The notes: generated from the sequence alone by a model not told the origin. A stretch of DNA of 20,158 bases from a virus (IMGVR_UViG_3300009604_003017:1-20158), one strand, 5' to 3'. Shown: positions 1,270 to 16,907, counted from the stretch's first letter. Made by a program: numbers and translations.

Positions 1270-3264
1270 TTAGTAGATATCTTTTACGCCGTCCACAAAC
1301 CAGTTTGGTCCCGAATATGGGTTTTCATCCTGTTTTGCTTTATAGGTCTTTCCTTTCACGGCAAACCCTCCATAAAAGTTATACTCTTGCTCTGAGGGCA
1401 TTCTTTGAAGGACTCTAGCGGACATGTTAGCCATAAGAAGTGCAGAGTATCGATCCTTACGCATCTTACGCTTCCTACCGGCGCCCACAATAACTTCTGG
1501 AGTATCCCACCTGTCTCTGCCGCTTGGGGTTTGGGTCATTGATATCATAGACAACTCATCTTTAAGTTCCTCAATATCCATAACGCATTCTTCCAAGGTG
1601 TCAAAGTGCCTATTTATAATTGAGTCTTCGGCGTGTGATAGCCCTAAGCTGACCGCATCGAAAAACGGAAAAATTAATGCCTTGTCTTCAAAATCTTTCC
1701 TTAGCCCATGATTAGCTTCGGATAACCAGTCGTATTTAGCAAATTGACACATTTCTAGAATGTGTAAGCCTCTCTCATCATCTGTGTCGGCCTCCTTGTC
1801 TTCATTTATAACAGGCCAAATAGGAATCTCGCCCTCCTGTATTTTGTCATTGTCATGCAGGGATTCCATAACTGCAATTCCGCCGCCTTGAGCATCCATG
1901 GCTATATGTATGCACGGAAACAATCTCATTAGGTCTCTAATTTTTCTGGCGCAGTACGCATAAAAATCCGTCTCTGAAGAATGCCCCTTCTTTACCTTCT
2001 CGCGGTGCTCTGATCTAGTGGTAGTCCAGCAATGAACAATTCTCCGATGACTTGGGTGGACTTCCAAGACAACTATGCTGAAATTGTCTACCTCGGAAGC
2101 GGGGTCAACGCCAAATATGTATCTCGCCTTCCGGTCTCCTAGCAGTGACGCTTCAAAAAATATCTCCTCCCCATTGTTGTCTTTGATAACGTTCTCATTG
2201 GTGATAACGCATGATTCGATTAGAGACCTCTTAAAGAATCCTTGGGAGTCTCTAGTAAAACACGCCCCAAACTCCATTTGATAAATCCCCGTGTGAACAG
2301 TCGCTTTGGAGCGAGCCACCTGAGCAGCATCCATGAAGCCCGGAGGAAGAATTTCATAAGGTATGCGTATAATTGAATATTGCTTCCAGTCAAAGTCCTC
2401 TGGCGGATCTTCTCCACCAAAAACTTCTCTAAGCTTAGAGCGGCGTCCCCCGCTTTTAATAATAGATTTCCACTTCTTCCAATATTCAGAAAAGTGATTA
2501 AAATCGTAATAGGCCGTACCAGAAATAATAATCTGATTATCCTTACTTTCAGAAATATAGCTCGATTCTTCCTCTACCTCCACGCCAAGTTCAAACGCTT
2601 TCTTTCTTGCTGCCACCCTTTTTACATTATCTATCGGATCAGCCGTAACAGCAGCAAATCCGGCTACCACTGTTTCAAAGATGTCTCTAGGTATAGAAGC
2701 AAATTCGTCACTAATAATATCATTTGCTCGTTGTCCACGAATTTTTTGTCCGTCGCCAAGGGGCAGACATGTAACAGTACTTTCATTTAGTCTCATCACG
2801 CATCGATCTACGTCTCTACGAGGTCCGCTAGTACTGCCACATATATCCCTTAATATTGGAGCATTTCTCCATATTGTCTCCATATATTCAAATAAGATCT
2901 TTGACTGTCTAAACGCAGCGCCGACGACGACTACTTTCCTTCTAGGTAATAATAAAGCTCTTAAAATGGCGTATAGAGAAAGCACGAATGACTTTCCAAA
3001 GCCACGACTAGCTATAAGGATAGGAAATTTTCTGTTCCACATCTCATACATCATCAACGCCTGAGAGGGCAACAGTTGAATATTTAGGATGTGCTTACAT
3101 AGGAAAGAAAAATATTCTGGCTGCGTCATAAGCCAAGCTAGCTTAAGATGGTAATCTTCTTCACGGGGCTTGAGAATAAGGGTCGGATTAAATATGTTCT
3201 TGTCTGGGATATCTAATCCTAGCCACGCATCATCTATCTTCTTTAAGCTAACTTGCTCTGTCAT
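1270..3264 (-). CDS. terL: Terminase large subunit (packaging ATPase and nuclease)
   Basis: This 664-aa protein powers packaging of phage DNA into proheads and cuts the concatemer. The N-terminal ATPase half shows a Walker A motif ASRGFGKS at residues 85-92, a Walker B motif DIISDEF at 182-188 with the catalytic acidic pair D186/E187, and a coupling motif IIISGT at 245-250. The C-terminal half looks like the RNase H-fold nuclease, with candidate metal-binding aspartates D387 (FGVDPAS), D457 (AMDAQG) and D604 (RKDRYSALL). The length is normal for the family. The portal gene follows after 59 bases and the dioxygenase gene precedes it by 19 bases. A GGA element sits just upstream of the ATG. I see no damage. 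No obvious small terminase gene lies next to it; the HTH/coiled-coil gene at 17071-17856 is a distant candidate. Confidence 0.95.
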   Translation of the reverse strand: MTEQVSLKKIDDAWLGLDIPDKNIFNPTLILKPREEDYHLKLAWLMTQPEYFSFLCKHILNIQLLPSQALMMYEMWNRKFPILIASRGFGKSFVLSLYAILRALLLPRRKVVVVGAAFRQSKILFEYMETIWRNAPILRDICGSTSGPRRDVDRCVMRLNESTVTCLPLGDGQKIRGQRANDIISDEFASIPRDIFETVVAGFAAVTADPIDNVKRVAARKKAFELGVEVEEESSYISESKDNQIIISGTAYYDFNHFSEYWKKWKSIIKSGGRRSKLREVFGGEDPPEDFDWKQYSIIRIPYEILPPGFMDAAQVARSKATVHTGIYQMEFGACFTRDSQGFFKRSLIESCVITNENVIKDNNGEEIFFEASLLGDRKARYIFGVDPASEVDNFSIVVLEVHPSHRRIVHCWTTTRSEHREKVKKGHSSETDFYAYCARKIRDLMRLFPCIHIAMDAQGGGIAVMESLHDNDKIQEGEIPIWPVINEDKEADTDDERGLHILEMCQFAKYDWLSEANHGLRKDFEDKALIFPFFDAVSLGLSHAEDSIINRHFDTLEECVMDIEELKDELSMISMTQTPSGRDRWDTPEVIVGAGRKRKMRKDRYSALLMANMSARVLQRMPSEQEYNFYGGFAVKGKTYKAKQDENPYSGPNWFVDGVKDIY

Positions 3265-3283: not shown

Positions 3284-3961
3284 CTATTTACCACAATGGA
3301 GCCTAACGACCAGTCTTTCTTTGCCTTCTGCTACACACCCCCCTTTATGAAAGGTGTTTGTATCAAATACAACTAGTGTCCCTGCTGATGCTTCAACTGG
3401 TTCTGCGGGATACTCTGTAAAGAGGGTTGGATAATCTATTTCTATCCTGTTTTTTACTTTATCATAGCTATTAGTATTATTCCACGCCTCTTGTCTCAGC
3501 GATTTGCCCTGTTGTCTTGAACCTACAGAACAGCTAAACGCTCCGCAGCTTTCATCTATGTCTGTTAGGTATATGAAGAACTTTAAGCACCAGTCTCTAT
3601 CAAAATGTAGCCATCCGTTTCTAGCTAGTTCTCCTGTAAATTTGTAATCATGTGTAGCATAAACATTCTTGCCGTAACCTCTAGCGTTGCCAGAATATTG
3701 TTCATGCAGTTTTCTCATCCAGTCTTCATTGTATACATGTGAGATTATGCTGTCGTCAGGAAAGGTACGCAACGCATCACCCCTGTAATTGCGGCCAAAT
3801 TCATAATGGCTCGCTTTGCTTTGACATTTGCCCAGTATATCGTCATGTAACTCTTGTAAAATGTCGCCGGATAGGTAGCGCTCAATTGTGAACACTCCGT
3901 CTGACACTAGCGTGTCATGCATATGAGATATTGTATCTCTTATTGTAAGTGTTTTTATCAT
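3284..3961 (-). CDS. PhyH-type 2-oxoglutarate/Fe(II) dioxygenase
   Basis: A 225-aa protein with the iron-binding facial triad of the phytanoyl-CoA dioxygenase superfamily: H119-F-D121 in WLHFDRDW, and distal H205 in DTNTFHKGG. R216 or R220 follows and would bind the 2-oxoglutarate carboxylate. The segment between them (LKFFIYLTDID..CGAF) matches the usual core strands, and AGTLVVFDTNTFH is the typical second-motif context. The family hydroxylates small molecules, lipids, sugars or peptides using O2 and 2-oxoglutarate. The substrate cannot be read from the sequence. It is the last gene of the sugar cassette, 10 bases downstream of the AroE-like gene, so hydroxylation or desaturation of a sugar or glycan precursor is a reasonable inference. 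Modification of a protein or nucleotide is possible too. Confidence 0.85.
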   Translation of the reverse strand: MIKTLTIRDTISHMHDTLVSDGVFTIERYLSGDILQELHDDILGKCQSKASHYEFGRNYRGDALRTFPDDSIISHVYNEDWMRKLHEQYSGNARGYGKNVYATHDYKFTGELARNGWLHFDRDWCLKFFIYLTDIDESCGAFSCSVGSRQQGKSLRQEAWNNTNSYDKVKNRIEIDYPTLFTEYPAEPVEASAGTLVVFDTNTFHKGGCVAEGKERLVVRLHCGK

Positions 3962-3971
3962 TTCGTTATCC

Positions 3972-4625
3972 CTATACCCCTATGGGAAACTCTAGGCCGG
4001 TATACAGCTTGAATTGATGTGACGCTTGCATGTTGGCTAGCTGTTTACCTGTGGCTGTTTGCACTATACAATCAATTATAGTATTATTATCGCTCACTAT
4101 AGATTTCAAATTTTCAACAGGTGTGCAGTTGTATACTACGCCATTATCTATATTATCTAATTGCTCCCAATTTTTTCTAGTAATATTGACATAGTGGATA
4201 TTAAGATCTTCTGCTGCCGCTTTAACTGCCGCTGCATATCCCCCGTTTCCTATGATATAAAAATTATCATGGTTCTGAAAGTCTTTAAGGTAATCTAGAG
4301 CAGCCAAATAGTCTGTGTTGTATGCTTTTAATTTGTTGTTTTCATTTATGACTGTGTTTGCCGCTCCTATCCGACCACCGTCCCAGATCTCATCAACATA
4401 CTCTAATACCTCTTGTTTAAACGGCATAGTTACCGCAAAGCCCTTTACGTCCAGTGTCTTCACAGATTTTATAGCATCCTCTATGCTGTCCACGGAAAAC
4501 GATTTGTAGATCTTGTTTAAGCCGTAGTAATAAAATGCGGTGTTCATCATTTGGCAACCGGTATTACCAGCAGTCTTGGCAAATGAACAATATACCTCTG
4601 TATCTTTATTGATCCACAAGTTCAT
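3972..4625 (-). CDS. Shikimate-dehydrogenase-like (AroE family) oxidoreductase, short form
   Basis: This 217-aa protein carries the AroE signature set in order: VTMPFK with the catalytic-type lysine K70, IGAANTV with N90, YNTD with D105, and a dinucleotide-binding glycine motif IIGNGGYAAAVKAA at about 124-137. Shikimate dehydrogenases reduce 3-dehydroshikimate with NADPH. This protein is shorter than the usual 260-280 residues, mostly at the C-terminus. The N-terminal substrate clamp that normally reads SxS followed by SP is degenerate here (SFAKTAGNTG). I infer a related substrate, for example a quinate-like or keto-sugar compound, rather than a housekeeping role. The start overlaps the upstream gene by 20 bases and has an AGGGAT ribosome-binding site. 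Neighbouring sugar genes support a biosynthetic role. Confidence 0.8.
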   Translation of the reverse strand: MNLWINKDTEVYCSFAKTAGNTGCQMMNTAFYYYGLNKIYKSFSVDSIEDAIKSVKTLDVKGFAVTMPFKQEVLEYVDEIWDGGRIGAANTVINENNKLKAYNTDYLAALDYLKDFQNHDNFYIIGNGGYAAAVKAAAEDLNIHYVNITRKNWEQLDNIDNGVVYNCTPVENLKSIVSDNNTIIDCIVQTATGKQLANMQASHQFKLYTGLEFPIGV

Positions 4626-5562
4626 TTAAATCCCTTAGTTTGTTTTTTATAACCCCATTGATTTTATCGTCTATGTCCAGTTTAATGAGTAAAAACTCAT
4701 CATCAGAAAGAACATAATGGCCACACACCTTTATCAATTCTTTCTTGTTGTCTTCGGGAACAAAATCCTCGTCAACCCATTTTCTCCATCTGTTTGAATG
4801 ATAACAAATTTGATAAAAATCTTCTATGTCATCACCCATTTCGTCCAAATAGCACAATGTTTCAAGCTGGCCCAATTCAGGGGCTATGTTTATTGCGTCA
4901 AGGCCCAAGTCAAACCTAGCTTTATATTCGTTGTTGGATAAGTAGTCTCCGTTGTGTTCTTTGCTCTTCTTGCCAAATTTTTTACACACCGCGATCATTT
5001 GTTCTAAATCGTTTGAATTGAAAGCTCCGGTATTAATTCTCTTGCCCAAATTCAACCCAACTCCAGATTGTATGGTTACGTATTCTATCGCGTCAAACAT
5101 TTCTGGTAACAACTTTGACTCTAAATCTGATAAAAATGTACTTAATGATGCAGCACTAAACTTTCTTATGGCCTCTTCTGTACCAACTTCAAATCTGATA
5201 TGTCTATTGGTGTAATAGCAAAATGCTATATTGCTTATACATTCTCTAAGTCCTTCATGATATCCAGAATATTTGACCCAAGGGTCTATGTGGATTATCT
5301 CTACATTTTCGCAGTCTGCTTTTAGGGACTCGTATCCGTCATCATCCATATAGCCCTGACTCGCCCCCGCGTGGTCTCTTTCAATTGTAACTCGTCCATT
5401 TACATACTTAGCAAACGTTTCAGTGGTCCAGTTGTTGACATATCCACCACTATAATCAACCTGTCTTCTCGAAGGAATGAAGCCAAACACATCGCCAAAA
5501 TCTATAACTGCATCGGTTATATTTAGAGACATCGGCCCTATAAAATATTTGATATTATTCAT
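4606..5562 (-). CDS. GatZ/KbaZ-like tagatose-bisphosphate-aldolase-family TIM-barrel protein
   Basis: I chose the ATG at 5560-5562 (318 aa) over an upstream in-frame ATG at 5610. It has an AAGGA Shine-Dalgarno just before it and leaves an 8-base overlap with the preceding gene. The protein aligns by eye with the GatZ/KbaZ family: SRRQVDYSGGYVNNWT with FAKYV (GatZ: SNQVN..GGYTGMT), ERDHAG (GatZ: GGDHLG), IHIDPW (GatZ: IHLDAS), FEVGTEE (GatZ: VIGTEV), TIQSGVGL (GatZ: VVQPGVEF), EHNGDYLS (GatZ: AHSTDYQT) and NIAPELG (GatZ: KVGPALT). GatZ/KbaZ proteins assist class II tagatose-1,6-bisphosphate aldolase, whose catalytic partner GatY/KbaY is not in the window. The protein may act alone as an aldolase or epimerase on a sugar phosphate. 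It sits between the nucleotidyltransferase-kinase fusion and the AroE-like gene. Confidence 0.7.
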   Translation of the reverse strand: MNNIKYFIGPMSLNITDAVIDFGDVFGFIPSRRQVDYSGGYVNNWTTETFAKYVNGRVTIERDHAGASQGYMDDDGYESLKADCENVEIIHIDPWVKYSGYHEGLRECISNIAFCYYTNRHIRFEVGTEEAIRKFSAASLSTFLSDLESKLLPEMFDAIEYVTIQSGVGLNLGKRINTGAFNSNDLEQMIAVCKKFGKKSKEHNGDYLSNNEYKARFDLGLDAINIAPELGQLETLCYLDEMGDDIEDFYQICYHSNRWRKWVDEDFVPEDNKKELIKVCGHYVLSDDEFLLIKLDIDDKINGVIKNKLRDLNELVDQ

Positions 5563-7456
5563 GGTCCTTTTGCAACATCTGATGTGACTTGAAAAATAAC
5601 AAATCTCCAAGCTCTCTCTCGTGGAGGGGAGACATGTTTAAAAATATAAGGGAGGTAATCGTCTTGATTTTTTCTAAATCGTATCCGTTGTCTACAATCC
5701 ATTGTTCGTACACCAACTTAAACTCATCCAGCTTAGGGTTAGATTTATAATTGTAAGTTACTATTTCTTTGTTAACATAGCAAGAAAAATTGTTACTATC
5801 TTTCATTGAGGAATAAGACATTAAGATTCCGCCATACATTTTTGCTAAGTCGTAATACACATCTCCAACGACCTGTCCCGCGAAATCTTGTCTCCAGTCT
5901 AATAGATAAAATCTACCGCAATCTGTGTGAATTACATTGTCAAATTGTAAATCTCCATGAAACATTTCTGTTGGTAGGCCCTTGCTCAGACGGCTCCATT
6001 TAAAATCATGCAATAAATCTTTAATGGAACTTGTTTTCACTCCGTTAACGATATGGCTGTTTAAATATGACTCCCCCCTTTCCGACAAGAACAATTTTAG
6101 TCTATCTAGAGTTTTATCCTTGTAGAATAATAAACAATCCTTTCTAATATCCTTATCAATCGGTTGCCACATATTATTCTTCATAAAAGATAGGAACTTT
6201 TTCCAAATATCGATATCATTGCAATCATATAAAGTGTTTCCTTCTAGCCACTTGTATGAAAACAAGTTGTTCCCGCAATAAACCACATCCGGGGCCAGCC
6301 CCCTTAACTTTTTGGCTCTCTCTACTCGCCCACTAATGAATTTGTCGTCTGAAGACAGTTTGATGAAATTGTTATCAACTCTGTAAAGAAATTCTCCGCT
6401 ATTTTTAGGGATGCTATACCTCACATTATCGTCGAATGTTTTTTGGGCATGCAAATAATTTTCTACCGTTCCGATGTCATACCAATCAAACATGTGGCCT
6501 TTCAGTGTTGAATATTTATCAGTGTTGTAGTAAGCGCTAACAACCTCCACGCCCTCCAATTCCTCCCAAAAGGTTTTGTAGTCATAAACTCCGGCCAACC
6601 CAATGAATGCATAATCATATCCATCTTCAGACTTATCTTTAAAATCAGTTATGTCTCCATTTTTGACATTTGCGGTGGAATATCTACTTGGAATACTCGT
6701 GGGGTAAAGGCCGAGCCAATCATAATCTACAGGAGGAAGGTCGTTTATAATAACTACATCTGCCGCCGCCCAAATAAATGGTCTCTGTAAATGTCTTTCG
6801 GCCTGTTTAATTGAATACCCCGGACCAGTTCCCTCCCCCTCATATTTGTCAACCGTGACAAAGGTAAAGTTTCTGTCTGGATGGGCCGCATCGCAATACT
6901 CTTTAACCATGTCTCCCCTATGCCCTAATACTATAATGATATCATGGTCTTTTGAAGTTTTATCAATGAGGTGAGAAATAATGGCCTTATTATTTAATGG
7001 TAACAGGCCCTTGTTTATGTGGTTTGAAAAGTCGGCCAATCTATTGCCGATTCCCGCTGCTAATATACACAACGCTGGTTTCGTGTGCTCGTGATCTATT
7101 CTACCAGAGCTACGAAAAGAATCATCTGAAATCCTAATCACGTCATCAACTTCGGGTGTGGAAGCTTCTTGTAAAATCACATCAGTTATTGCTATAATCC
7201 TATGTTTTCTTGGCGGTACAACAGTAAAGAATTCGCCAGCCTTCATTACTGTCTTTTCTACTACGCCTTCGTCGTTTTCTAACCAAACTTCAGCTGTGCC
7301 TTCAATTATATAGTTTGTTTCTAGCTTTTGCTCATGGTATTGGTAGCTTGTTTTTTTTCCAGCGTTAATATGCAGCCTCTTATAACAATACCGGTGGTTC
7401 AATTCTAGCCAAAGCTCTTTCCCCCAAGGCTTGTATACTGTTTTACAGTTCGACAT
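5555..7456 (-). CDS. Three-domain fusion: cupin (type II phosphomannose isomerase-like) + sugar nucleotidyltransferase + APH/choline-kinase-like kinase
   Basis: The likely start is the ATG at 7454-7456, preceded by GGGAG; an in-frame ATG at 7471 has poorer spacing. Numbering here counts from 7471. Residues about 10-120 form a cupin like the C-terminal part of ManC (YKPWGKELW, Y-x-Y-H, IIEGTAEVW, EVDDVIRISDD). Residues about 133-345 form a nucleotidyltransferase with LAAGIGNRL (137-145) and K154 in NKGLLPL. Residues about 360-638 form an aminoglycoside/choline-kinase-fold phosphotransferase with the Brenner motif HGDLQFDN (505-512) and DWR (525-527). Together they could isomerise or sense, phosphorylate and nucleotide-activate a sugar or small alcohol for a surface glycan. 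The substrate is unknown. It overlaps the HAD gene by 14 bases and the GatZ-like gene by 8. The frame is intact throughout. Confidence 0.85.
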   Translation of the reverse strand: MSNCKTVYKPWGKELWLELNHRYCYKRLHINAGKKTSYQYHEQKLETNYIIEGTAEVWLENDEGVVEKTVMKAGEFFTVVPPRKHRIIAITDVILQEASTPEVDDVIRISDDSFRSSGRIDHEHTKPALCILAAGIGNRLADFSNHINKGLLPLNNKAIISHLIDKTSKDHDIIIVLGHRGDMVKEYCDAAHPDRNFTFVTVDKYEGEGTGPGYSIKQAERHLQRPFIWAAADVVIINDLPPVDYDWLGLYPTSIPSRYSTANVKNGDITDFKDKSEDGYDYAFIGLAGVYDYKTFWEELEGVEVVSAYYNTDKYSTLKGHMFDWYDIGTVENYLHAQKTFDDNVRYSIPKNSGEFLYRVDNNFIKLSSDDKFISGRVERAKKLRGLAPDVVYCGNNLFSYKWLEGNTLYDCNDIDIWKKFLSFMKNNMWQPIDKDIRKDCLLFYKDKTLDRLKLFLSERGESYLNSHIVNGVKTSSIKDLLHDFKWSRLSKGLPTEMFHGDLQFDNVIHTDCGRFYLLDWRQDFAGQVVGDVYYDLAKMYGGILMSYSSMKDSNNFSCYVNKEIVTYNYKSNPKLDEFKLVYEQWIVDNGYDLEKIKTITSLIFLNMSPLHERELGDLLFFKSHQMLQKDHE

Positions 7457-7802
7457 TCTCAACTCCCGCATTCCTGTCTAGATTTATTGAATACACAGTA
7501 TCTCTACTGCTGTCAGGCTTTCTGTCATTTATCAAAACCCTATCTCCACCACCAATTCCCATCACTAGCTTATCATAAAATATACCTGTTTTTTGCAACT
7601 GTGCTTCTGTTTGTCTTCTACAGGATTCTCTTCTGCCGGTCACCAAGATGATATTATATCCCTTTCTATCCCATTCAATTAATTTTTCTCGCGCCCCTTT
7701 CAATAAGATAGGCTCTTTGCTTATTTGTTTATGAAGGTCTCCGTGGTGATGCAAAAGGGTTCCATCAATATCACAAAAAATTGTTTTCATGGTCTTACTC
7801 AT
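7443..7802 (-). CDS. Small HAD-superfamily phosphatase
   Basis: A 119-aa protein with the HAD nucleophile motif DIDGTLL (D11, D13), motif II threonine in LVTGRR (about 53-58), and a terminal INDRKP segment resembling the motif III/IV acidic loop. There is little room for a cap domain, as in small cap-less (C0) HADs that act on sugar phosphates. It lies inside the sugar cassette between a putative glycosyltransferase and the nucleotidyltransferase-kinase fusion. It could dephosphorylate the ulosonate-8-phosphate made by the KdsA-like enzyme (a KdsC-like job) or another sugar phosphate, but the sequence does not decide this. The start at 7802 lies one base after the upstream stop; an alternative ATG at 7790 is four codons in. 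Neither start has a strong ribosome-binding site. Confidence 0.8.
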   Translation of the reverse strand: MSKTMKTIFCDIDGTLLHHHGDLHKQISKEPILLKGAREKLIEWDRKGYNIILVTGRRESCRRQTEAQLQKTGIFYDKLVMGIGGGDRVLINDRKPDSSRDTVYSINLDRNAGVENVEL

Positions 7803-7803
7803 C

Positions 7804-8589
7804 TTATCTAAAAAGTTGGTACTTCCAGTTAGGCGTTATCAATGCGCCTTTTCCTAAAACTTTTTCAATATGCTCACGGCAAGCAAACGTAGGTCTGATT
7901 GAGTAGCTATGAATATTATCATAGAGAGCGCCAAATTGATCCATTATGTGACTATCTCCTACAAACCAGTAATCGAATAAGGTGTAATCAATATCTATTC
8001 TACCAGTTCTTTTACTAGCATAGATTTTATCCTTTTCGAGTTTTTCGAAAGGCAGAGGTGTCAAAAATTTATTGTCGAATCTATTCAATAAAACAAAATC
8101 ATATCTAAATCCTTGCTCGTCTTCGTACTGTTTTTTTAATTCAAGGGTGCGCTTAGTGGACCACCATCTACTTTTTGTTCTAAATGCCAGTAGTGCCAAT
8201 TCCTTCAAAATATTATCCACCGTTTGTCTAGATGGTAACAACCCTTCATACCCAAACCTTGTGGATTCACTAATGTCCCATTTAGATATATCGCCTCCCT
8301 TTATTCCATATTCTTCTAAGTCTACTTCAAAGTTTGCTTGAGGAAGTATTTCGTGTTTGCGGGGTTTATAATGGTCTATAATCTCTTTTTCCTTATTTGT
8401 GGACCAACTATGAACAAATACCTCTGCTTCGTATTTATCTATGATATTTTTTAAGTTTCTATAGGTCGGCAATATATCCTTATTTGCTATATTTGATTCG
8501 TGAATTAATTCTTCACAAGTTCTAGCGGGTCTCGCGCTGGCACAATTGTTATGGCCCACATTACCATATAGACAAATGGCGATTTTCAT
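7804..8589 (-). CDS. Putative glycosyltransferase-like protein of the sugar cassette
   Basis: The start is the ATG at 8587-8589, which overlaps the upstream stop as ATGA (4 bases). An in-frame ATG at 8631 is less likely because it would run 46 bases into the upstream gene. The 261-aa protein begins MKIAICLYGNVG, a short hydrophobic strand with glycines. Later it shows TYRNLKNIIDKY..VFVHSW and DFVLLNRFDNKF. This pattern (an N-terminal strand, a DVFVHSW-like segment and an R-F-D motif) recalls glycan-biosynthesis proteins of viruses and bacteria that are predicted glycosyltransferases. I cannot place it in a named GT family and see no classical DxD beyond RFDN and the IDID segment. Its position among sugar-activating and modifying enzymes is the main support. 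Confidence 0.5.
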   Translation of the reverse strand: MKIAICLYGNVGHNNCASARPARTCEELIHESNIANKDILPTYRNLKNIIDKYEAEVFVHSWSTNKEKEIIDHYKPRKHEILPQANFEVDLEEYGIKGGDISKWDISESTRFGYEGLLPSRQTVDNILKELALLAFRTKSRWWSTKRTLELKKQYEDEQGFRYDFVLLNRFDNKFLTPLPFEKLEKDKIYASKRTGRIDIDYTLFDYWFVGDSHIMDQFGALYDNIHSYSIRPTFACREHIEKVLGKGALITPNWKYQLFR

Positions 8590-9179
8590 TGAACTACCCC
8601 ATACATCCTTGGGCCACAAGGAAACAACCACCCAGTAGACTGAACATCCATGACAACTTCATCACAGAACTCTTTAAAGGCCTGTGTTTCGCCCCCAATA
8701 GTATGTTCGTCTACTACTACCAGCGCCCCTTTGGACAAATATTTTCCACAGGCGCGAAGCGCTTCTATTGCTGGTAGGTATGCATTACAATCAATATACA
8801 TCATGGATATTTTATGAGCTTTGCCAACCGTGTCTAAATATTGGTGTATTGTCTTTTTAATATCTCCGACAACTATTTGGCAATAATCCTCTAGTCCCTT
8901 TTTGGTTATTGTGTCAGCTACTAATGTTTTAGATATATTCCATCTTTTACTTCGTTGGTTTCTTAGTACTCCTTCATTGGCACCTACAAGATCCTCTTCA
9001 CAATGGCCATCAAAGGTATCAAAGCCTATGTACTGTTTTTCGGAGTTGCTCTCTTGCAGAAAGTGCCCGATGATAAATGTATTGTTTCCCTTATGCACTC
9101 CTAGCTCTATTATGTCTCCATTAATATTTTGGATTCTATTGAGAAGACTGTTGATATTTTGTGCTAAAACCTTCTGCAT
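8586..9179 (-). CDS. TylF/macrocin-O-methyltransferase-like SAM-dependent methyltransferase
   Basis: A 197-aa protein with a SAM-binding motif IIELGVHKGNNT (23-34), a second motif YIGFDTFDGHCEED (50-63), YIDCNAY (128-134) and a following strand VVVDEH (154-159). These match the TylF family of metal-dependent sugar O-methyltransferases, where the acidic residues of the later motifs bind Mg2+ and position the sugar hydroxyl. The family methylates hydroxyls in antibiotics and surface glycans. Here it would methylate a sugar made by the cassette; the substrate is unknown. It starts 44 bases inside the end of the CMP-sugar synthetase gene, with AAGGGA 8 bases before the ATG, which supports this start. 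The stop is coupled to the downstream gene by ATGA. Confidence 0.8.
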   Translation of the reverse strand: MQKVLAQNINSLLNRIQNINGDIIELGVHKGNNTFIIGHFLQESNSEKQYIGFDTFDGHCEEDLVGANEGVLRNQRSKRWNISKTLVADTITKKGLEDYCQIVVGDIKKTIHQYLDTVGKAHKISMMYIDCNAYLPAIEALRACGKYLSKGALVVVDEHTIGGETQAFKEFCDEVVMDVQSTGWLFPCGPRMYGVVQ

Positions 9180-9816
9180 ATTTTATGTCCCTTAGCGTGT
9201 TAATGTCTATAGATCTTTCTGGAGGAATAATGACACCCCTTACATTGCCCTTAAAGAAGTTTCTATGCTCTAGCAGGGAACCCCACTGCCCCATATAAAA
9301 CGCTCCAGAAGGCTTGTAATACTTCTTTATGAACTTGCTGTTTGTGAGTCCGCATTCAAGGTTGTCAAAAATGGGTAGCACATTGTCCCCGCTCATCACA
9401 CATGCTAATTGGATAGTTTCTGGTATTTGTGTCATGCTTATTACAGAGTCTGCGTGTGGGAGTAAGCTGATGCCCTTGCGTATATCTTCAACACCCACAA
9501 AGGGGCACGTAGGTAAAAAGTAAGAGAACGTATCGCAATCGTCAACCTCGTCCATTAAGTCCATCATAGCATCCAGAACCGTTGCTTGCACTGTAGCGTG
9601 GTGCGCAGGGCGGTTGTGCCTAACAACGCCCAAGTCAGACACGGCATCAAAAATTCTGTCGTCATCAGTAGATACTAAAATATGATTAAAGCGCTCAGAA
9701 GCAACAACAGATTCGGTAATCCACCTTATCAGTGGCTTGCCAGCCAAGGGGTAGATATTTTTATCTTTGAGTCTAGTTGATCCACCCCTAGCTGGTATTA
9801 CCGCCAAGCTTTTCAT
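9136..9816 (-). CDS. CMP-sugar synthetase (NeuA/acylneuraminate cytidylyltransferase family)
   Basis: A 226-aa protein starting MKSLAVIPARGGSTRLKDKN, the P-loop-like signature of CMP-N-acetylneuraminate synthetases. Further motifs are STDDD (49-53), LPTCPF (101-106, usually LQPTSP) and SIDINTLRD (202-210), whose aspartates D204 and D210 are the expected metal ligands. The enzyme transfers CMP from CTP to the anomeric hydroxyl of a ulosonic or nonulosonic acid. The motif resembles NeuA/PseF/LegF more than KdsB, yet its partner in the cassette is a KDO-8-phosphate synthase, so the true sugar could be KDO, a KDO derivative or a nonulosonate. The ATG overlaps the upstream stop by 4 bases. Confidence 0.88.
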   Translation of the reverse strand: MKSLAVIPARGGSTRLKDKNIYPLAGKPLIRWITESVVASERFNHILVSTDDDRIFDAVSDLGVVRHNRPAHHATVQATVLDAMMDLMDEVDDCDTFSYFLPTCPFVGVEDIRKGISLLPHADSVISMTQIPETIQLACVMSGDNVLPIFDNLECGLTNSKFIKKYYKPSGAFYMGQWGSLLEHRNFFKGNVRGVIIPPERSIDINTLRDIKYAEGFSTKYQQSSQ

Positions 9817-9995
9817 AGTATTTTACGTAGCCTCTCGTTTATTTTGGTAGCAGACTCTACGAAGACAAATGGCAAGAAGGCGTGAACGAAACAAAGTACA
9901 CCCCCCATAATCATGTTAATACTAACATAAATTGCCTTTCTAAAGTGTGTAAAATATGATACATTGTTTTTTTCAAGATGTTTAAGATCAATCAT
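9813..9995 (-). CDS. Small DUF6356-like membrane protein
   Basis: A 60-aa protein with the pattern DLKHLEKNNVSYFTHFRKA followed by one long hydrophobic stretch (about residues 21-48) containing CFVHAFLPFVF and then ESATKI. I recognise this as the DUF6356 family, short membrane proteins often found in or near surface-polysaccharide clusters; their biochemical role is unknown. It lies between kdsA and the CMP-sugar synthetase, overlapping them by 8 and 4 bases, so it is translationally coupled to both. A strong GGGGGGAT-type ribosome-binding site precedes the ATG. It may anchor or regulate the CMP-sugar enzymes at the inner membrane, but that is inference. Confidence 0.75.
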   Translation of the reverse strand: MIDLKHLEKNNVSYFTHFRKAIYVSINMIMGGVLCFVHAFLPFVFVESATKINERLRKIL

Positions 9996-10764
9996 AGATC
10001 CCCCCTACCGTTTTTGCTTTTTGAATTAAGGATTTAAGATCGTCCAAATGAATCAGACATTGACCGTCAGACACTGAATCGCTTGGTCTCGGATGTGTTT
10101 CTGCAAACACTCCATCGTAGTTAAATAAATCGGCAGCAACAAAGTATCTTCCGGCAAGCACCGGATCTCCCTGTGTGCCATGTACTGCTCTGGACCTTTG
10201 TGTTGAATGTGTACAGTCTAAGATCACTCGGTCATAATATTTTTTCAGTTCATCAACAATCCCAAAGTTGACAAACAGGTCGTGATACCCAAAGTTGGAA
10301 CCTCTGTCACATACCCAAGCTTCACAGGACGGGTTGGTTTCTTTTACCTTGTCTACTGAAACAAGCAGGTTGTTTGGTCCTAGCCACTGACCCTTCTTAA
10401 TATTGACTATTGGAAAATGTTTGGCAGACTCAACAATTAAATCAGTTTGTCTTGACAAAAATGCAGGAATTTGTATCACATCAATCAATCCTGCTAGCTG
10501 TTCTGCTTGCCAGCATTCATGAATATCGGTAGTAAAGCGTACATTGGGATATAGTTCTTTGGCTTCTGCCCAAACTTCTTTTGCGTATTCTAGTCCGGGT
10601 CCGCGACCACCCTGTAGGGATGTTCTATTGGCTTTATCAAAGCTGGCCTTCATGTACCAGTTGTCATCCTTGTCCATGATGGAGTTAATTGCCCCCAAGC
10701 ATTCCAAAAATAGGTCTTTGCTCTCAAGGGAGCACGGTCCCAAAATCCATACCTTATCTCTCAT
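9988..10764 (-). CDS. kdsA: 3-deoxy-D-manno-octulosonate-8-phosphate synthase, metal-dependent type
   Basis: This 258-aa protein is a clear KdsA homologue: GPCSLES (9-15), KASFDKANRTS (39-49), GGRGPG, TDIHE (79-83), QIPAFLSRQTDL (98-109), NIKKGQWL (121-128), DRGSNFGYHDL (153-163), LDCTHSTQ (182-189) and AETHPRP (221-227). It condenses phosphoenolpyruvate with arabinose-5-phosphate to give KDO-8-phosphate in the cytoplasm. Residue C11 in the GPC motif, with H186, E222 and D233, matches the metal site of metal-requiring enzymes such as that of Aquifex; E. coli-type enzymes have Asn instead of Cys. The length is close to the family norm. It overlaps the aldolase gene by 11 bases and has an AGGGAT ribosome-binding site. 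A DAHP-like or other ulosonate specificity is possible but less likely. Confidence 0.93.
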   Translation of the reverse strand: MRDKVWILGPCSLESKDLFLECLGAINSIMDKDDNWYMKASFDKANRTSLQGGRGPGLEYAKEVWAEAKELYPNVRFTTDIHECWQAEQLAGLIDVIQIPAFLSRQTDLIVESAKHFPIVNIKKGQWLGPNNLLVSVDKVKETNPSCEAWVCDRGSNFGYHDLFVNFGIVDELKKYYDRVILDCTHSTQRSRAVHGTQGDPVLAGRYFVAADLFNYDGVFAETHPRPSDSVSDGQCLIHLDDLKSLIQKAKTVGGIYD

Positions 10765-11635
10765 TTTTAATATCCCTGATCACTTCGGAAATTTGATTTA
10801 TGCACTGGTCATCGCAGTTGGGCCAAGGGTTTCTATCGTTAAGGCATGTTAGGTTTAGTATCTTTAACGATGCTCGTAGAGACTTGTGCCACCCATTAGC
10901 CATGAAGACATCAAAGAGTCTAGCCTCTGTTTGTAAATGTTTCATTTTGTCGTGACCAGCCAGAAATTCGTTTTCTATGTCTGGAAATAGATTGCCAACC
11001 CCAGCAAGTAAAGAATTTGCGCCTGCCGACTCCAAGAATGCAAGCCTTCTCATGCTTCCGCCTGCCACGATAACGTCGAGATTGGGGTTTAGGTGTCGGA
11101 CAAAGTTGTAAGAAGCTTGCAGGTTGGGGTGTTCTTCTTTTATACCCGCCACATACCCCAAATCGTACAGCCTATTTATAATATCACAATCATAGTTCCA
11201 GTCTCCAGATATGCCAGACCTCATTTTTTGAGTATGCAAATACACGCTATCGCCAGCCGCTTCGCAAATACGTTGCAGATAATCAACGACTACATCTTCA
11301 CCGTAAAATCTATCTGGATACAGCGCCATAAGCTTAGCATCTTTTCCTAGGTAGCTCCTTGAGGCGTGGACAAAATCACAAGCCTCTGTCGTGCTAGCTG
11401 GTGGAATGCCTAATATTTTTGCACCCTCAAAGGATTCAGATATACAGGCGTTAAGATCTATTATCTCTTCGGTTGCTAGAAGGTTAAACTGAGAAGTTCC
11501 AGCAGTAGTCATGACACACTGGGCGCCATGGGTTTTTAAATACTTCAAATATACGACAGTTGATTCTAGCTCAAGGCGTTCCTCTTTGTCATAGGACGGG
11601 GGAATGGCTACAATGGATCGCGGCGTAGGAGTCAT
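10754..11635 (-). CDS. DapA/NanA-family Schiff-base aldolase
   Basis: This 293-aa protein has the (beta/alpha)8 aldolase signatures of the dihydrodipicolinate synthase/N-acetylneuraminate lyase family: TTAGTSQFNLLATEE (43-57, usually GTTGE..L..eE), LYPDRFYGEDV (105-115, aligned with the usual YYP region), YLHTQK with candidate catalytic Tyr132, and the Schiff-base lysine K166 in VAGIKEEH. Family members add pyruvate to an aldehyde or reverse this. Adjacent kdsA and a CMP-sugar synthetase suggest pyruvate-dependent making or breaking of a ulosonic acid, rather than lysine synthesis. The start TAATG overlaps the upstream stop by one base. The active-site glycine-threonine motif is slightly divergent, so substrate assignment is open. 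Confidence 0.85.
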   Translation of the reverse strand: MTPTPRSIVAIPPSYDKEERLELESTVVYLKYLKTHGAQCVMTTAGTSQFNLLATEEIIDLNACISESFEGAKILGIPPASTTEACDFVHASRSYLGKDAKLMALYPDRFYGEDVVVDYLQRICEAAGDSVYLHTQKMRSGISGDWNYDCDIINRLYDLGYVAGIKEEHPNLQASYNFVRHLNPNLDVIVAGGSMRRLAFLESAGANSLLAGVGNLFPDIENEFLAGHDKMKHLQTEARLFDVFMANGWHKSLRASLKILNLTCLNDRNPWPNCDDQCINQISEVIRDIKNER

Positions 11636-12297
11636 TATTCAATGAACCTCTTGATTATGTTTAAACTGGTGATGGTTGGGGTCAAGAGAGAGGAGTCAAT
11701 TTCCATACTGGTAGTATCTTTAATAGCACAAAATGTTGCATCAACCAAGTCAGCGCTATGTAGTTTCTTTATTAAATCAATCTCTGATGCTACATCGTGA
11801 TGGTATCCAGTGCCATCTTTACGTGTGTATTGCTTGTTTAACTGGTCACGTTTTTGTAAGGAGAGGCCAATCAGGAACGGCTTGATTCCTTTGTGCATGC
11901 AATCAGCCATATACGCAAAACCGCACCTGACACACTTTGTTATTTTATGGTTAATCCCGTGCTTTCTCAAGATAGACTTCATTAGTTCGGTATTGTTACC
12001 AGCAAAGTTCTGGAAAATTACATTGTCTTTCTTTAGGTGTTCATAAAAAGCATCTATATGATCTTCTGGAATCCCGAATTCCTTATGGTAGTTAGGTCTC
12101 CACTTAAGGGGCGGTAAATTTTTAGTATAGTTCTCGTAGATATGACCGTTTAATATCTGACGAGTTGCGTCCCTCTTTCCGTAGTTGTTGTCAGGCAGCA
12201 GCATGTTGTGGCGTACAATGACATCAAAGCTATCTACCAGCTTGTTGAAATTGGCATGTTCGTACCTTCTGGAGCCACATATGATATAACTATCCAT
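11635..12297 (-). CDS. Sialyltransferase-like glycosyltransferase (GT29/GT42-like)
   Basis: The 220-aa protein begins with a nucleotide-binding strand (SYIICGSRRYE), followed by DSFDVIVRHN (22-31), the counterpart of the sialyl-motif phrase in which a fold residue recognises CMP. Later it has VRCGFAYMADCMHKGIKPFLIGLSL (residues about 123-147; compare SGVYMCAVAIALGYKEIYLSGID in the Campylobacter GT42 enzyme), and H167-x4-E172 in HHDVASE, the H-x4-E motif of sialyltransferases. Such enzymes move a sialic or KDO-type sugar from CMP-sugar to a glycan. A CMP-sugar synthetase lies two genes downstream of the adjoining aldolase and kdsA genes, which fits. Similarity is by motif and is weak, so the acceptor and the exact GT family are unknown. 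It overlaps the upstream 57-aa gene by 8 bases. Confidence 0.6.
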   Translation of the reverse strand: MDSYIICGSRRYEHANFNKLVDSFDVIVRHNMLLPDNNYGKRDATRQILNGHIYENYTKNLPPLKWRPNYHKEFGIPEDHIDAFYEHLKKDNVIFQNFAGNNTELMKSILRKHGINHKITKCVRCGFAYMADCMHKGIKPFLIGLSLQKRDQLNKQYTRKDGTGYHHDVASEIDLIKKLHSADLVDATFCAIKDTTSMEIDSSLLTPTITSLNIIKRFIE

Positions 12298-12463
12298 TTA
12301 TATCCCGCTCTTTTTCTTCCGCTTCTTCTTCGCTATCAAACGGACCCCACAGTTGACCGCCATAAAAATAGTACCACCCACGACCATCATACCCAGTAGT
12401 ACCATACTCAGGATAGCTACGGCCTTCAAAAGCCGGGTCCATTCGATAATATTCTACAGTCAT
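12290..12463 (-). CDS. Small aromatic-rich protein, 57 aa
   Basis: An intact 57-codon reading frame between the ClpP and sialyltransferase-like genes. It starts with an ATG overlapping the ClpP stop (ATGA, 4 bases) and ends 8 bases inside the next gene, exactly the coupling style of its neighbours. The protein is rich in Tyr, Gly and Trp, with the phrase WYYFYGGQLWGPF, and ends in an acidic tail (DSEEEAEEKE). The phrase resembles short phage proteins with a YYYGGxLxGPF core. I do not know a function; binding of a ligand or a protein partner by the aromatic core is possible. The overlap pattern makes it a real gene. Confidence 0.75.
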   Translation of the reverse strand: MTVEYYRMDPAFEGRSYPEYGTTGYDGRGWYYFYGGQLWGPFDSEEEAEEKERDING

Positions 12464-13110
12464 TTTAATTTTAGTCTATCTATTGAGCCATACTTTTTAC
12501 TAGTGATCACACCATCCGCAAAACCGTGATACACCGCTTCATGTGGCGACAGATACCAATCACCGCACTGTAGCTTTCGACGTAAAAACGTCCTCACCTT
12601 ATCACAAGTCAGAGCTTTATATCGCTCATTGAAAAATTTGCCTTCGACACATCTCTCTGCATAGATATCTAGCATCGTGTCTGCTCTAGATTTTTCAAAA
12701 GTAGCTAGCTTTTGGGCGTTCACGTAATCTCCACCACAATCGATGCTGCCATAATGTAGCATCAAGTAAGTGTGAGGCATCATAATTCTTACATCAGCGG
12801 CCTGTAACACCACGCTACTCATTGATTCGGCTTGTCCGTAAGTCAAAATAGTTACATCAGATTTGCATAACTGGATGGCGTCATAGATTGCCATCCCATC
12901 CCCCCACTCGCCACCAATGCTGTGCATGTGAACCAGTATAGGAAGATTACTGACAGAGTCCAGAAATCTAAGGTTCTTAATAAACGTGGTAGCCATCCGG
13001 TATTCTACTCCGGGGTCTTCTTCAAAATGGCCATGATGGCCGTGCAAAAATATCTCTCGCCGCTTTGTGTCTAGATTATAAGAATGAATATCGCCCACTT
13101 GGTCAAGCAT
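12460..13110 (-). CDS. clpP: ClpP-type serine protease
   Basis: A 216-aa protein of the ClpP fold. The catalytic triad looks complete: S96 in GQAESMSSVV (E. coli ClpP GQAASMGA), H119 in YLMLHYGS, and D183 in CGDWYLSPHEAVYHGFADG (E. coli ERDRFLSAPEAVEYGLVD). The glycine strand HSIGGEWGDGMAIYD (63-77) matches the oxyanion region NSPGG. Host ClpP works with ClpX/A ATPases. In phages, ClpP-fold proteins can be prohead maturation proteases or host modulators. Position next to nuclease genes rather than the capsid gene does not settle which. No unfoldase is seen here. The stop overlaps the following small gene as ATGA. Confidence 0.88.
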   Translation of the reverse strand: MLDQVGDIHSYNLDTKRREIFLHGHHGHFEEDPGVEYRMATTFIKNLRFLDSVSNLPILVHMHSIGGEWGDGMAIYDAIQLCKSDVTILTYGQAESMSSVVLQAADVRIMMPHTYLMLHYGSIDCGGDYVNAQKLATFEKSRADTMLDIYAERCVEGKFFNERYKALTCDKVRTFLRRKLQCGDWYLSPHEAVYHGFADGVITSKKYGSIDRLKLK

Positions 13111-13112
13111 GC

Positions 13113-13616
13113 CTACTTTTTCCTCCCAATGGTATACATCTCATTCACTCTCTTGAAAATGCTACTCACTGTAAGAAAGGCGTTGTATTTGTTCTCACAG
13201 AATAATACATGTATCCCGTTGTATAGCTGGAATTCCATAAGACACTTTAGAATATACTTCCCTGTAATCTTTAAAATGGCCTTGTTTTTTTCAGGAATGC
13301 GAGAGCTTTCTGGGAAATCGACCAAATCAGATAGGGAGAATTCTAGTACTAGGAACTTATGTGGAAACTCTACCATGCGTTCAATTTCATTAAGGAATGC
13401 GTGCTTTTTTTGTCCTAGGTTGATGGCTAGTTCTTCTATACAGCCCTTTCTTTCAATGCAGATCTTGTCCTCCATACCCTGAATGGTATAATCTCCGGTA
13501 TCCAATTTGTGTTCTACCATTCCAGCACAAGTATTATACTTGCTGAAATAATATCCTTCCTGCTCTCTCGTATCTTTAATAACGAAAAAGTCTGGCGCTT
13601 GCTTGTACTTAGCCAT
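13113..13616 (-). CDS. ERCC4/XPF-fold nuclease
   Basis: A 167-aa protein whose N-terminal half has the ERCC4 nuclease motif: DTREQ (15-19), LDTGDYT with D42, then CIERKGCIEEL with the E55-R56-K57 catalytic core. This fits the GDxnERKx3D pattern, though the last acidic position appears as Glu rather than Asp. XPF/Mus81-type nucleases cut branched or structured DNA. Phage homologues could resolve branches before packaging or degrade foreign DNA. It ends two bases before the ClpP gene and overlaps the upstream HNH gene by 8 bases, suggesting the two nucleases are made together. It is shorter than cellular XPF and has no visible (HhH)2 domain. Confidence 0.82.
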   Translation of the reverse strand: MAKYKQAPDFFVIKDTREQEGYYFSKYNTCAGMVEHKLDTGDYTIQGMEDKICIERKGCIEELAINLGQKKHAFLNEIERMVEFPHKFLVLEFSLSDLVDFPESSRIPEKNKAILKITGKYILKCLMEFQLYNGIHVLFCENKYNAFLTVSSIFKRVNEMYTIGRKK

Positions 13617-15196: not shown

Positions 15197-15802
15197 TTAT
15201 CCTCCTACTTTCTCTGGTAACCTAGGTGGTGGCAACTGATGGAAACTGATTCCCCCGTTTCTTGTGAGGCTTCCGCCACCCTTCCCTTTAGCGCTGTCCC
15301 CTTTCCCGCTCTTGGCCGCTCCTTTTTCCGCTTTTCCTTTCCCCTTCTTTCCGCTCTTTCCTCTTTCTCCTCCTACCTGTTCTCCTCTCTTAATCATCTC
15401 TATAGCTCTCTGCGATTGTTCGTGCAGACCCCTAGAGTAATCTAGACGATACGCTCTAGGTCTTGACTTTCCGTCATAGAAAGATAGCAGATAGTCTTCC
15501 CATGATTCGTGTTTCTCTACAGTCTTGGATAGGGGCTTTGTCCAGATATATACAGCCCCCTCGCTCCCTGTCTTCTTGTCGGGTTCGCTGACCACTACCC
15601 AGTGTACTAGAAACTTCTCTGGTAGGATTTCCTCGGTGGGCCAGCCCATGAAATCTTTAACAGAAAAACCTACGGATAAACAGAAATATAATGAGAACAT
15701 GATCATAAGAGCCTTACTGAGCCAGTGCCCCTTAGACCCTATAATAAACCACAGAATCAATACCGCTATAATAACAAACCCTAAACCTAAAGAAAAATTC
15801 AT
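15197..15802 (-). CDS. Membrane protein with Gly/Lys-rich tail, unknown function
   Basis: A 201-aa protein with two predicted transmembrane helices (about residues 4-22 and 29-48), a folded middle region (FSVKDFMGWPTEEILPEKF, VHWVVV, AVYIWTKP, RAYRLDYSR), and a C-terminal low-complexity tail from about residue 146 with repeated Gly-Lys and Ala-Lys-Gly patterns. No named family comes to mind. It directly follows the ExbD-like gene with an ATGA overlap, so I infer it belongs to the same membrane complex as the ExbB/ExbD-like pair, perhaps as an effector or anchor. The basic tail could bind nucleic acid or anionic polymer, or be a flexible linker. It is followed by gmd after one base. Confidence 0.75.
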   Translation of the reverse strand: MNFSLGLGFVIIAVLILWFIIGSKGHWLSKALMIMFSLYFCLSVGFSVKDFMGWPTEEILPEKFLVHWVVVSEPDKKTGSEGAVYIWTKPLSKTVEKHESWEDYLLSFYDGKSRPRAYRLDYSRGLHEQSQRAIEMIKRGEQVGGERGKSGKKGKGKAEKGAAKSGKGDSAKGKGGGSLTRNGGISFHQLPPPRLPEKVGG

Positions 15803-16404
15803 AAGCCTACAGCCTCTTTCTTTACAAGAGATAGGGGAAGCTGATTTACTTCCGTCACTTTCCCGTCCTTGTCTAAAACAAATCTAAAAGCAGTCTTCTC
15901 GTCTCCGCTATCCCCCAGTATAACCTTTTTGATTACTACTGTCTTAAAGGAAGGGTTGATTTTATCCAGTTGTATTGTGACCTCTGTAATAGCTTTCTCG
16001 TCCCGTCTCTTATACATGTGAACGTTGACTATATATTCTCCCCGATTAAATCCTCTCAGGGTAACAATTTCCTTATTCTCCTTATGTTCTACAGGTCCGA
16101 ATGGAGTCTGTACGATATCATTTATTTTACCTAGGTCGTCACGATCAAGGTGCATAAGCCCTTCCTCGCGCCTCATAAAAGCTACTAGGTTGCCCTGTGG
16201 GTCTCTAACATACGTATCTACATCATTGTCCAGATCTTTAGCCCACGTCACAGTGATAATGTAATCCGCCTTAGATTTAACGTTGTTTTTATTCTTGCTA
16301 GGATTGATGAGGATAAAAGATAAGATAAACAGCGCTGCGAAACATAGCAGCGTGTTGAATAGAAGGTCTAGGAAGGCCAAGCTAGTATGATAGTTACGTT
16401 TCAT
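15799..16404 (-). CDS. ExbD/TolR-like membrane protein with periplasmic DVD-type domain
   Basis: A 201-aa protein with one N-terminal transmembrane helix (about residues 9-33) carrying a single aspartate D13 in SLAFLDLLFNT. A membrane Asp in this position is the proton-carrying residue of ExbD, TolR and MotB. After the helix is an extracytoplasmic domain with strands YIITVTW, DVDTYVRDPQGN (61-72) and an acidic turn HLDRDDLG (85-92), a pattern like the DUF2135/YfaP-type domain DVDLxVxDPxG. It is immediately preceded by an ExbB/TolQ-like gene (4-base overlap), giving the ExbB-ExbD order of proton-driven membrane motors. There is no OmpA peptidoglycan-binding domain, which argues against MotB or ZorB. 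Its function in a phage is unknown; energised transport, membrane disruption or lysis control are possible. Confidence 0.7.
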   Translation of the reverse strand: MKRNYHTSLAFLDLLFNTLLCFAALFILSFILINPSKNKNNVKSKADYIITVTWAKDLDNDVDTYVRDPQGNLVAFMRREEGLMHLDRDDLGKINDIVQTPFGPVEHKENKEIVTLRGFNRGEYIVNVHMYKRRDEKAITEVTIQLDKINPSFKTVVIKKVILGDSGDEKTAFRFVLDKDGKVTEVNQLPLSLVKKEAVGL

Positions 16405-16907
16405 TTTCTCACTTGGTCAATTGCCTGATTAAGATTGAAATACTGTATCTTGAGAAGAGAACTACAGATTAGCCCCACTAGGGTACTATATAACGCCGTT
16501 GACATCCCTCCACCAAGATTCTTGATAAGACCCTGCACGGTATTAATATCGGAAACGTCTACTTGGGCCAGACCCGAAAGCATCATAACGAACCCAATCA
16601 CCGTTCCCATCATACCGATACTAAGACAGAGATCACTCGTAAACCACCCAACCTCCATCAAGCCCTCTATTTTTGCAACGATGTGCTCATCTTCATCACT
16701 AGAGTCTATAAATCTACTCAGTCTCCACGTCTTCATTCCACACCACGTTGACATTCCCATGAAAATACCCATGAGGACAAAGCTTAGCTTGGTCGAATCT
16801 TGCTCCCATAAGACCACCAGCCCCCCACTCATTGCTACCAAGGTCAGCCCTATAAGAGTAGCAACAAATAAAAGCCACCATTTAAGGAATAAGGTATGTC
16901 TAATCAC
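16401..16907 (-). CDS. MotA/TolQ/ExbB-like proton channel protein
   Basis: A 168-aa membrane protein starting with GTG at 16905-16907. It has helices at about residues 8-33, 41-58, 93-113 and 133-153. The core shows DLCLSIGMMGTVIGFVMML (compare ExbB GLFGTVWGIM) with polar T102, and GGGMSTALYSTLVGLICSS with T142 aligned to the ExbB ATAIGL threonine; these two residues line the proton path in E. coli ExbB. Length and topology fit a short ExbB/TolQ. It forms with the downstream ExbD-like gene a pair that would couple proton motive force to movement of a periplasmic domain. It overlaps the upstream 55-aa gene by 8 bases and has GGGAGGATGG before the GTG. Confidence 0.82.
   Translation of the reverse strand: MIRHTLFLKWWLLFVATLIGLTLVAMSGGLVVLWEQDSTKLSFVLMGIFMGMSTWCGMKTWRLSRFIDSSDEDEHIVAKIEGLMEVGWFTSDLCLSIGMMGTVIGFVMMLSGLAQVDVSDINTVQGLIKNLGGGMSTALYSTLVGLICSSLLKIQYFNLNQAIDQVRK

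Follow-up and report, generated by a model that had tools for sequence, protein, structure and literature searches.

Organization of the locus

The window, i.e. the whole stretch of DNA analysed here, is a virus record of 20,158 bases in which positions 1270-3264 encode the large subunit of a phage terminase. Within it, a minus-strand gene (5555-7456, stop codon included) encodes an intact single-chain protein of 633 amino acids, in which a cupin domain is followed by a nucleotidyltransferase domain and a kinase domain. The minus-strand frame is open for 638 codons (5555-7471), with an alternative ATG upstream at 7471. The ATG at 7456 appears to be the likelier start, since a GGGAG motif (7467-7463) lies 6 nt upstream of it and since a gene starting there shares its first 14 bases with the end of the HAD gene before it; the gene limits given in the preliminary description are therefore right. 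The surroundings are those of a phage genome, and a bacterial capsule locus is ruled out by the virus record with its terminase large subunit.

The fusion gene is part of a conserved cassette in the order HAD phosphatase, fusion, ketose epimerase/aldolase-like protein of the GatZ/KbaZ/UxaE fold, and AroE/SdhL-like reductase. GatZ-like and AroE-like genes are present in all 21 of the 21 representative viral fusion loci, and the small HAD in 19 of them. In the window all of these genes, and the two flanking genes described below, lie on the minus strand. The small HAD phosphatase (7443-7802, 119 aa) overlaps the fusion gene and is homologous to RB69p051. At the other end, the start of the GatZ-like gene (4606-5562, 318 aa) overlaps the fusion's stop. 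Its product resembles TIM-barrel ketose-phosphate epimerases and aldolases: the AlphaFold2 model (pLDDT 94.8) is matched by Foldseek to KbaZ-type structures (3txv and 2fiq), to tagatose epimerase 9lhw and to UxaE 6il9. The corresponding family, PF08013, has no match in the window's GatZ-like protein, scores below its cut-off in phage relatives, and passes it in the cellular relative L131 (30.8 vs 26.7). The compact AroE/SdhL-like protein (3972-4625, 217 aa) matches PF08501 (6e-15) and NCBIfam PRK12550 (1e-37, 130 bits vs a cut-off of 306), with all aroE models below cut-off. Judged by these profiles, it is a member of the shikimate-dehydrogenase superfamily that fails the equivalog cut-offs for shikimate dehydrogenase. 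For a full-length cellular relative of this protein, the closest PDB entry is 1npy, HI0607 (7e-60), and 7cok, a 5-ketofructose reductase, is also matched (2e-30); a relative of the shikimate dehydrogenases that reduces 5-ketofructose has been described (PMC7954740).

Two further genes flank the cassette. A PhyH-type dioxygenase (3284-3961; PF05721) follows it and is found in few relatives, and a PHROG 13607 protein, possibly a glycosyltransferase (7804-8631), is a cassette neighbour in 14/21 fused representatives. In another locus (L082, 2663-3661), a PHROG 13607-like (ORF275) domain is fused to a cupin directly upstream of a nucleotidyltransferase-kinase gene, which ties the PHROG 13607 protein to the pathway. 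Elsewhere in the window, the region 9136-12297 harbours a PseF/KdsB-like CMP-sugar synthetase, a DAHP/KDO-8-P-synthase-like protein, a DHDPS/NanA-like aldolase and an unplaced 220-aa protein; this gene content suggests a second, sugar-acid cassette for phage-encoded CMP-ulosonic acid synthesis. Methyltransferase and GDP-mannose dehydratase genes are also present, as are genes for a ClpP-like protease (12460-13110) and an ERCC4-type nuclease (13113-13616). At 15799-16907, a MotA/TolQ/ExbB-like proton channel gene, seemingly an uncommon feature among phages, adjoins the gene of a 201-aa protein whose N-terminal part has a single hydrophobic stretch.

Domains and predicted structure of the fusion protein

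Residue ranges of the three domains are counted here from the start at 7456, and Pfam positions from the start at 7471. The PMI/ManC-type cupin (7127-7456, minus strand; residues 1-110) matches PF01050, MannoseP_isomer, at positions 8-115 (E 2e-8; 34.7 bits vs a gathering score of 23.6). Its candidate metal ligands, Q39, H41, E46 and H85, are present in all fused rows of an 87-row alignment, and the ligand positions are shared by fused and separate cupins. The best matches in a PDB profile search are oxalate decarboxylases, and the separate cupin of a Woesearchaeota MAG is 71% identical to the window's domain (locus L120).

The nucleotidyltransferase (6434-7087, minus strand; residues 124-341) has the RmlA/LicC/MurU fold and matches PF12804/PF00483 (NTP_transf_3/NTP_transferase, positions 135-243, E 1e-8 and 1e-6). 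Both PDB profile search and Foldseek place it closest to sugar- and choline-phosphate nucleotidylyltransferases: the top profile match is LicC 1jyk, a CTP:phosphocholine cytidylyltransferase (5e-13), and Foldseek against the PDB groups it with RmlA, GalU and MurU. The third domain (5558-6412, minus strand; residues 349-633) is an APH/choline-kinase-like kinase with the motifs HGDLQFDN, DWRQDF and GDVYYDLAK. Its match to PF01636 (APH, positions 491-546, E 0.003) is sub-threshold in the window, at 17.6 bits vs a Pfam cut-off of 23.2, and the same region is above the cut-off in the relatives L131 (29.2 bits) and L159 (36.2 bits). A search of solved structures with the kinase only gave no reliable match.

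Across the 87 alignment rows, the nucleotidyltransferase and kinase motifs, HGDxxxxN and DWR of the kinase among them, are invariant or nearly so, and the window protein has every catalytic motif (GxGxR...NK, D233, WxDxG, HGDxxxxN, DWR and GDxxYDxxK). The AlphaFold2 model of the whole chain has a mean pLDDT of 94.0, and low confidence is confined to the N-terminus and the two linkers (around residues 110-122 and 341-350). Chance motif matches are ruled out by the Pfam domains, the model and the motif alignment taken together. The earlier claim of three intact domains, in the order cupin, nucleotidyltransferase, kinase and in one chain, is borne out by the same evidence and by the recurrences described next.

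Recurrence and distribution

Three scans of IMG/VR recovered the whole three-domain ORF in 41 distinct other viral contigs from many metagenomes. These ORFs encode 628-657 aa at about 43-100% identity, one of them (L001) being nearly identical to the window. An assembly false join, which the preliminary description had named as a possible refutation, is ruled out by this recurrence of the complete fusion. In a viral relative with 61% identity (L112, 5281-7167), the fusion ORF and those around it are fragmented, through assembly error or decay. The viral fusions are one clade: in a tree built from 123 nucleotidyltransferase-kinase sequences, their 21 representatives are set apart from the rest by one branch with SH-aLRT 100. 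Among cellular organisms, a Bdellovibrionales MAG (L159) carries its own three-domain fusion of 764 aa, which apparently arose independently of the viral ones; no second fusion was found in 57 further genomes of its class. A fusion common in cells is ruled out by these counts (1/79 scanned cellular loci among the matches listed, and 0/57 further genomes of the MAG's class).

The preliminary description regarded the order of domains as unusual, and this holds for the single chain only. A separate cupin gene lies directly upstream of the nucleotidyltransferase-kinase gene, often overlapping it, in 37/79 cellular loci among the matches listed and in 20/28 non-fused viral representatives; as adjacent, often overlapping genes, the same order is the commonest arrangement. 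The only phage record that covers 80% of the fusion protein, Marine virus AG-345-E15, has such a split form, with a separate cupin, a HAD gene in front and a GatZ-like gene behind. The same record (L006, 4035-5892) shows these domains recombined in yet another way, with a further kinase gene ahead of a probable nucleotidyltransferase-HAD fusion. Megablast found no near-identical reference phages, plasmids gave only partial matches to the fusion, and full-text searches of open-access papers returned no published account of this three-domain architecture.

Cellular relatives and alternative sugar modules

A search through 84,980 species genomes yielded at least 80 bacterial and archaeal loci. 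By neighbour clustering, the 80 listed loci include a KdsC-like phosphatase (53 loci), a cupin (44) and a GatZ-like protein (42), and less often a ribulose-phosphate epimerase (RPE, 14), a SIS isomerase (13) or a split transketolase (8). The cellular relatives also adjoin glycosyltransferase-like and methyltransferase-like genes.

Co-occurrence was tested in the 64 listed cellular loci longer than 9 kb, using Fisher p values that ignore relatedness. GatZ and RPE are never found together, GatZ being present in 0/11 RPE loci vs 37/53 others (p 2e-5); the cupin behaves alike (0/11 vs 36/53, p 3e-5), and 10/11 RPE loci have a SIS isomerase. GatZ is associated with the cupin (p 3e-6) and is absent from transketolase loci (p 5e-4), where transketolase and a GmhA-like SIS protein form a third module. 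When mapped on the tree, the GatZ-cupin link amounts to about 6.6 to 0 tree-independent pairs (p about 0.016) and is the sole link reaching significance; the RPE contrasts, including the RPE/cupin exclusion, involve 4-6 independent tree changes, all in the expected direction and too few for pair-test significance. Transketolase/GmhA loci often retain the cupin too, and the isomerase swap is not universal. These patterns can be read as a core enzyme that would be fed by alternative ketose-phosphate modules. They also suggest that the cupin may be an aldose-ketose isomerase, because GatZ and cupin are replaced in cells by RPE and a SIS isomerase, the cupin taking the place that the SIS sugar isomerase has in the RPE module.

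Proposed pathway and alternative explanations

Judging from sequence, the fusion protein very probably turns a simple sugar into an activated form for glycan building. More specifically, and with fair rather than full confidence, it would be a fused multistep sugar-activating enzyme (isomerase, kinase and nucleotidylyltransferase) converting a ketose phosphate into an NDP-sugar within a phage-borne glycan-decoration cassette. The GatZ-like enzyme would epimerise or form the ketose phosphate, and the PMI-type cupin would interconvert it with an aldose phosphate. The kinase would phosphorylate the sugar, with the anomeric position as the likeliest site, and the small HAD phosphatase would take off the original terminal phosphate either before or after that step. 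The nucleotidyltransferase could then join the sugar-1-phosphate and an NTP into the NDP-sugar, to be used by neighbouring transferases in the decoration of host-envelope or virion glycans; the AroE-like enzyme may add an extra redox step in this subclade. We infer the activities, the order of the steps and the glycan destination from family chemistry and context. Counting against the isomerase role, cupins are a varied group that includes epimerases, oxygenases and plain binding domains besides isomerases, and the best PDB profile matches of this one are oxalate decarboxylases. The sub-threshold APH score of the window protein likewise weighs against the scheme. The earlier proposal that a single chain phosphorylates and activates one substrate stands in that kinase and nucleotidyltransferase probably acting in series is the best reading, but the two-domain nucleotidyltransferase-kinase protein is not in itself new (PHROG 4098).

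The glycan destination is not guaranteed, as the RB69 homologue has been proposed for DNA modification. An NDP-sugar (e.g. an NDP-pentose) put on a modified base by a phage transferase, as proposed for ara-hmC in RB69, would agree with the homology of the core and the HAD to RB69p051-053 and to ORF046-047 of Enterococcus phage 9183, genes that adjoin DNA polymerase or thymidylate synthase genes (PMC6024577). For the window such DNA hypermodification is nonetheless unlikely: no base-modifying or thymidylate-synthase-type gene is seen in its 20 kb, the CMP-sugar synthetase-like, DAHP/KDO-8-P-synthase-like, DHDPS/NanA-like, methyltransferase and GDP-mannose dehydratase neighbours are typical of glycan making, and the cellular relatives lie near glycosyltransferase-like and methyltransferase-like genes. 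These sugar genes, and the fact that no base-modification gene was seen, tilt the balance from DNA modification towards glycan use.

The nature of the activated compound is also open to other readings. The kinase could act on the terminal hydroxyl of a ketose, or of an alditol made by the AroE-like enzyme, leading to a CDP-ketose or CDP-polyol, in which case the cupin would not be an aldose-ketose isomerase. Such a route would suit the GatZ-type ketose enzymes of the cassette and the reduction of 5-ketofructose by an AroE-superfamily relative (7cok), and it has a precedent in C. jejuni HS:5, where a nucleotidyltransferase acting on a ketose phosphate and a partner reductase convert CDP-6-fructose into CDP-glucitol (PMC10918830). 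It is rendered quite improbable by the wider family, in which most cassettes have no AroE and keep a PMI-type cupin or a SIS isomerase, families in which the members known so far often interconvert ketoses and aldoses. Least probable, and markedly so, is an activation like that of LicCA, with a kinase acting on an amino alcohol, a nucleotidyltransferase forming CDP-choline or CDP-ethanolamine, and the cupin as a binding domain. The comparison with LicA/LicC made in the preliminary description fits as far as folds are concerned, as the best PDB profile match is 1jyk and the kinase appears to belong to the APH/choline-kinase superfamily. The conserved ketose-phosphate enzymes and the phosphatase, on the other hand, would have no role in choline activation, and the neighbours (HAD phosphatase, ketose-phosphate epimerase/aldolase and AroE-superfamily reductase) point to a sugar.

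Sugar activation by the fusion offers a concrete, testable role for a sizeable set of phage and cellular proteins that lack annotation (PHROG 4098 and its relatives). Among them is the RB69 protein that is presumed to produce UDP-arabinose and whose chemistry the literature on it describes as unclear. From upstream modules that exclude one another, a substrate derived from a ketose phosphate is predicted, and the findings indicate that many phages carry their own complete sugar-activation route instead of relying on host nucleotide sugars. A broader and more tentative possibility, held with less than even confidence, is an undescribed NDP-sugar pathway common to phages, bacteria and archaea, in which a core enzyme is served by interchangeable modules (GatZ with PMI-cupin, RPE with SIS isomerase, or transketolase with a GmhA-like protein) and the phage-welded isomerase-kinase-nucleotidyltransferase makes a rare sugar not known from hosts.

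Comparison with known systems

The nucleotidyltransferase-kinase core is already known from phages (PHROG 4098) and is common in bacteria and archaea. The fusion matches phrog_4098 over residues 135-567, both domains in one chain (E 2.4e-16), and two-domain relatives are found by Foldseek among predicted viral structures, e.g. that of Tenacibaculum phage PTm1. PHROG 4098 is the family containing RB69 ORF53_52c, and the family HMMs match RB69p053 (6.8e-14) and RB69p052 (2.2e-14). RB69 ORF53_52c, a single chain of 561 residues, has been proposed, not proven, to take part in making UDP-arabinose for arabinosylated DNA (PMC6024577). As in the window, its nucleotidyltransferase precedes an APH-like kinase in one chain, a homologous small HAD (RB69p051) adjoins, and a sugar-phosphate isomerase is nearby (RB69p055, arabinose-5-phosphate isomerase). 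That isomerase, though, is a separate SIS protein, the RB69 stretch seen has no cupin, GatZ-like or AroE-like gene, and ORF53_52c, with its proposed role in DNA arabinosylation, lies beside a DNA polymerase. The window's small HAD is also homologous to the one beside the nucleotidyltransferase-kinase of Enterococcus phage 9183. Some annotations of such proteins seem to be mistaken (L007 4712-5369, L008 4688-5348, L200 1209-1595): small HADs of cyanophages and RB69 carry the label 'phosphoheptose isomerase' (PHROG 1238), and cyanophage PMI-type cupins are labelled either 'cysteine dioxygenase' or 'putative nucleotidyltransferase'.

Another three-domain fusion, Butyrivibrio SFQ39577.1, joins a nucleotidyltransferase, a kinase and a SIS isomerase in one protein (PMC6024577). 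By description, it is like the window protein in combining a related core with a sugar isomerase, and unlike it in having a C-terminal SIS domain instead of an N-terminal PMI-type cupin. Like the window protein, ManC/AlgA-type GMP-PMI enzymes pair a nucleotidyltransferase with a PMI-type cupin belonging to PF01050, but there the order is reversed, with the cupin C-terminal, and a kinase is absent; the full-length GMP_PMI model fails on the fusion (TIGR01479, 35.6 bits vs a cut-off of 373, cupin region only). HldE, a bifunctional sugar kinase and nucleotidyltransferase, works with a HAD phosphatase and an isomerase (GmhB and GmhA) and starts from a ketose phosphate; its kinase is of the PfkB type and its nucleotidyltransferase has a different fold, and the likeness to the window fusion is one of analogy, not homology. 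In Treponema LicCA and in AmgK/MurU, a kinase of the APH superfamily works with a nucleotidyltransferase of the RmlA/LicC/MurU fold; the likeness is one of fold, and these systems differ from the window in having no cupin and a different cassette. The fusion is thus real and widespread in phages, kinase-nucleotidyltransferase proteins were known before, and what sets the window protein apart is its N-terminal cupin together with its cassette.
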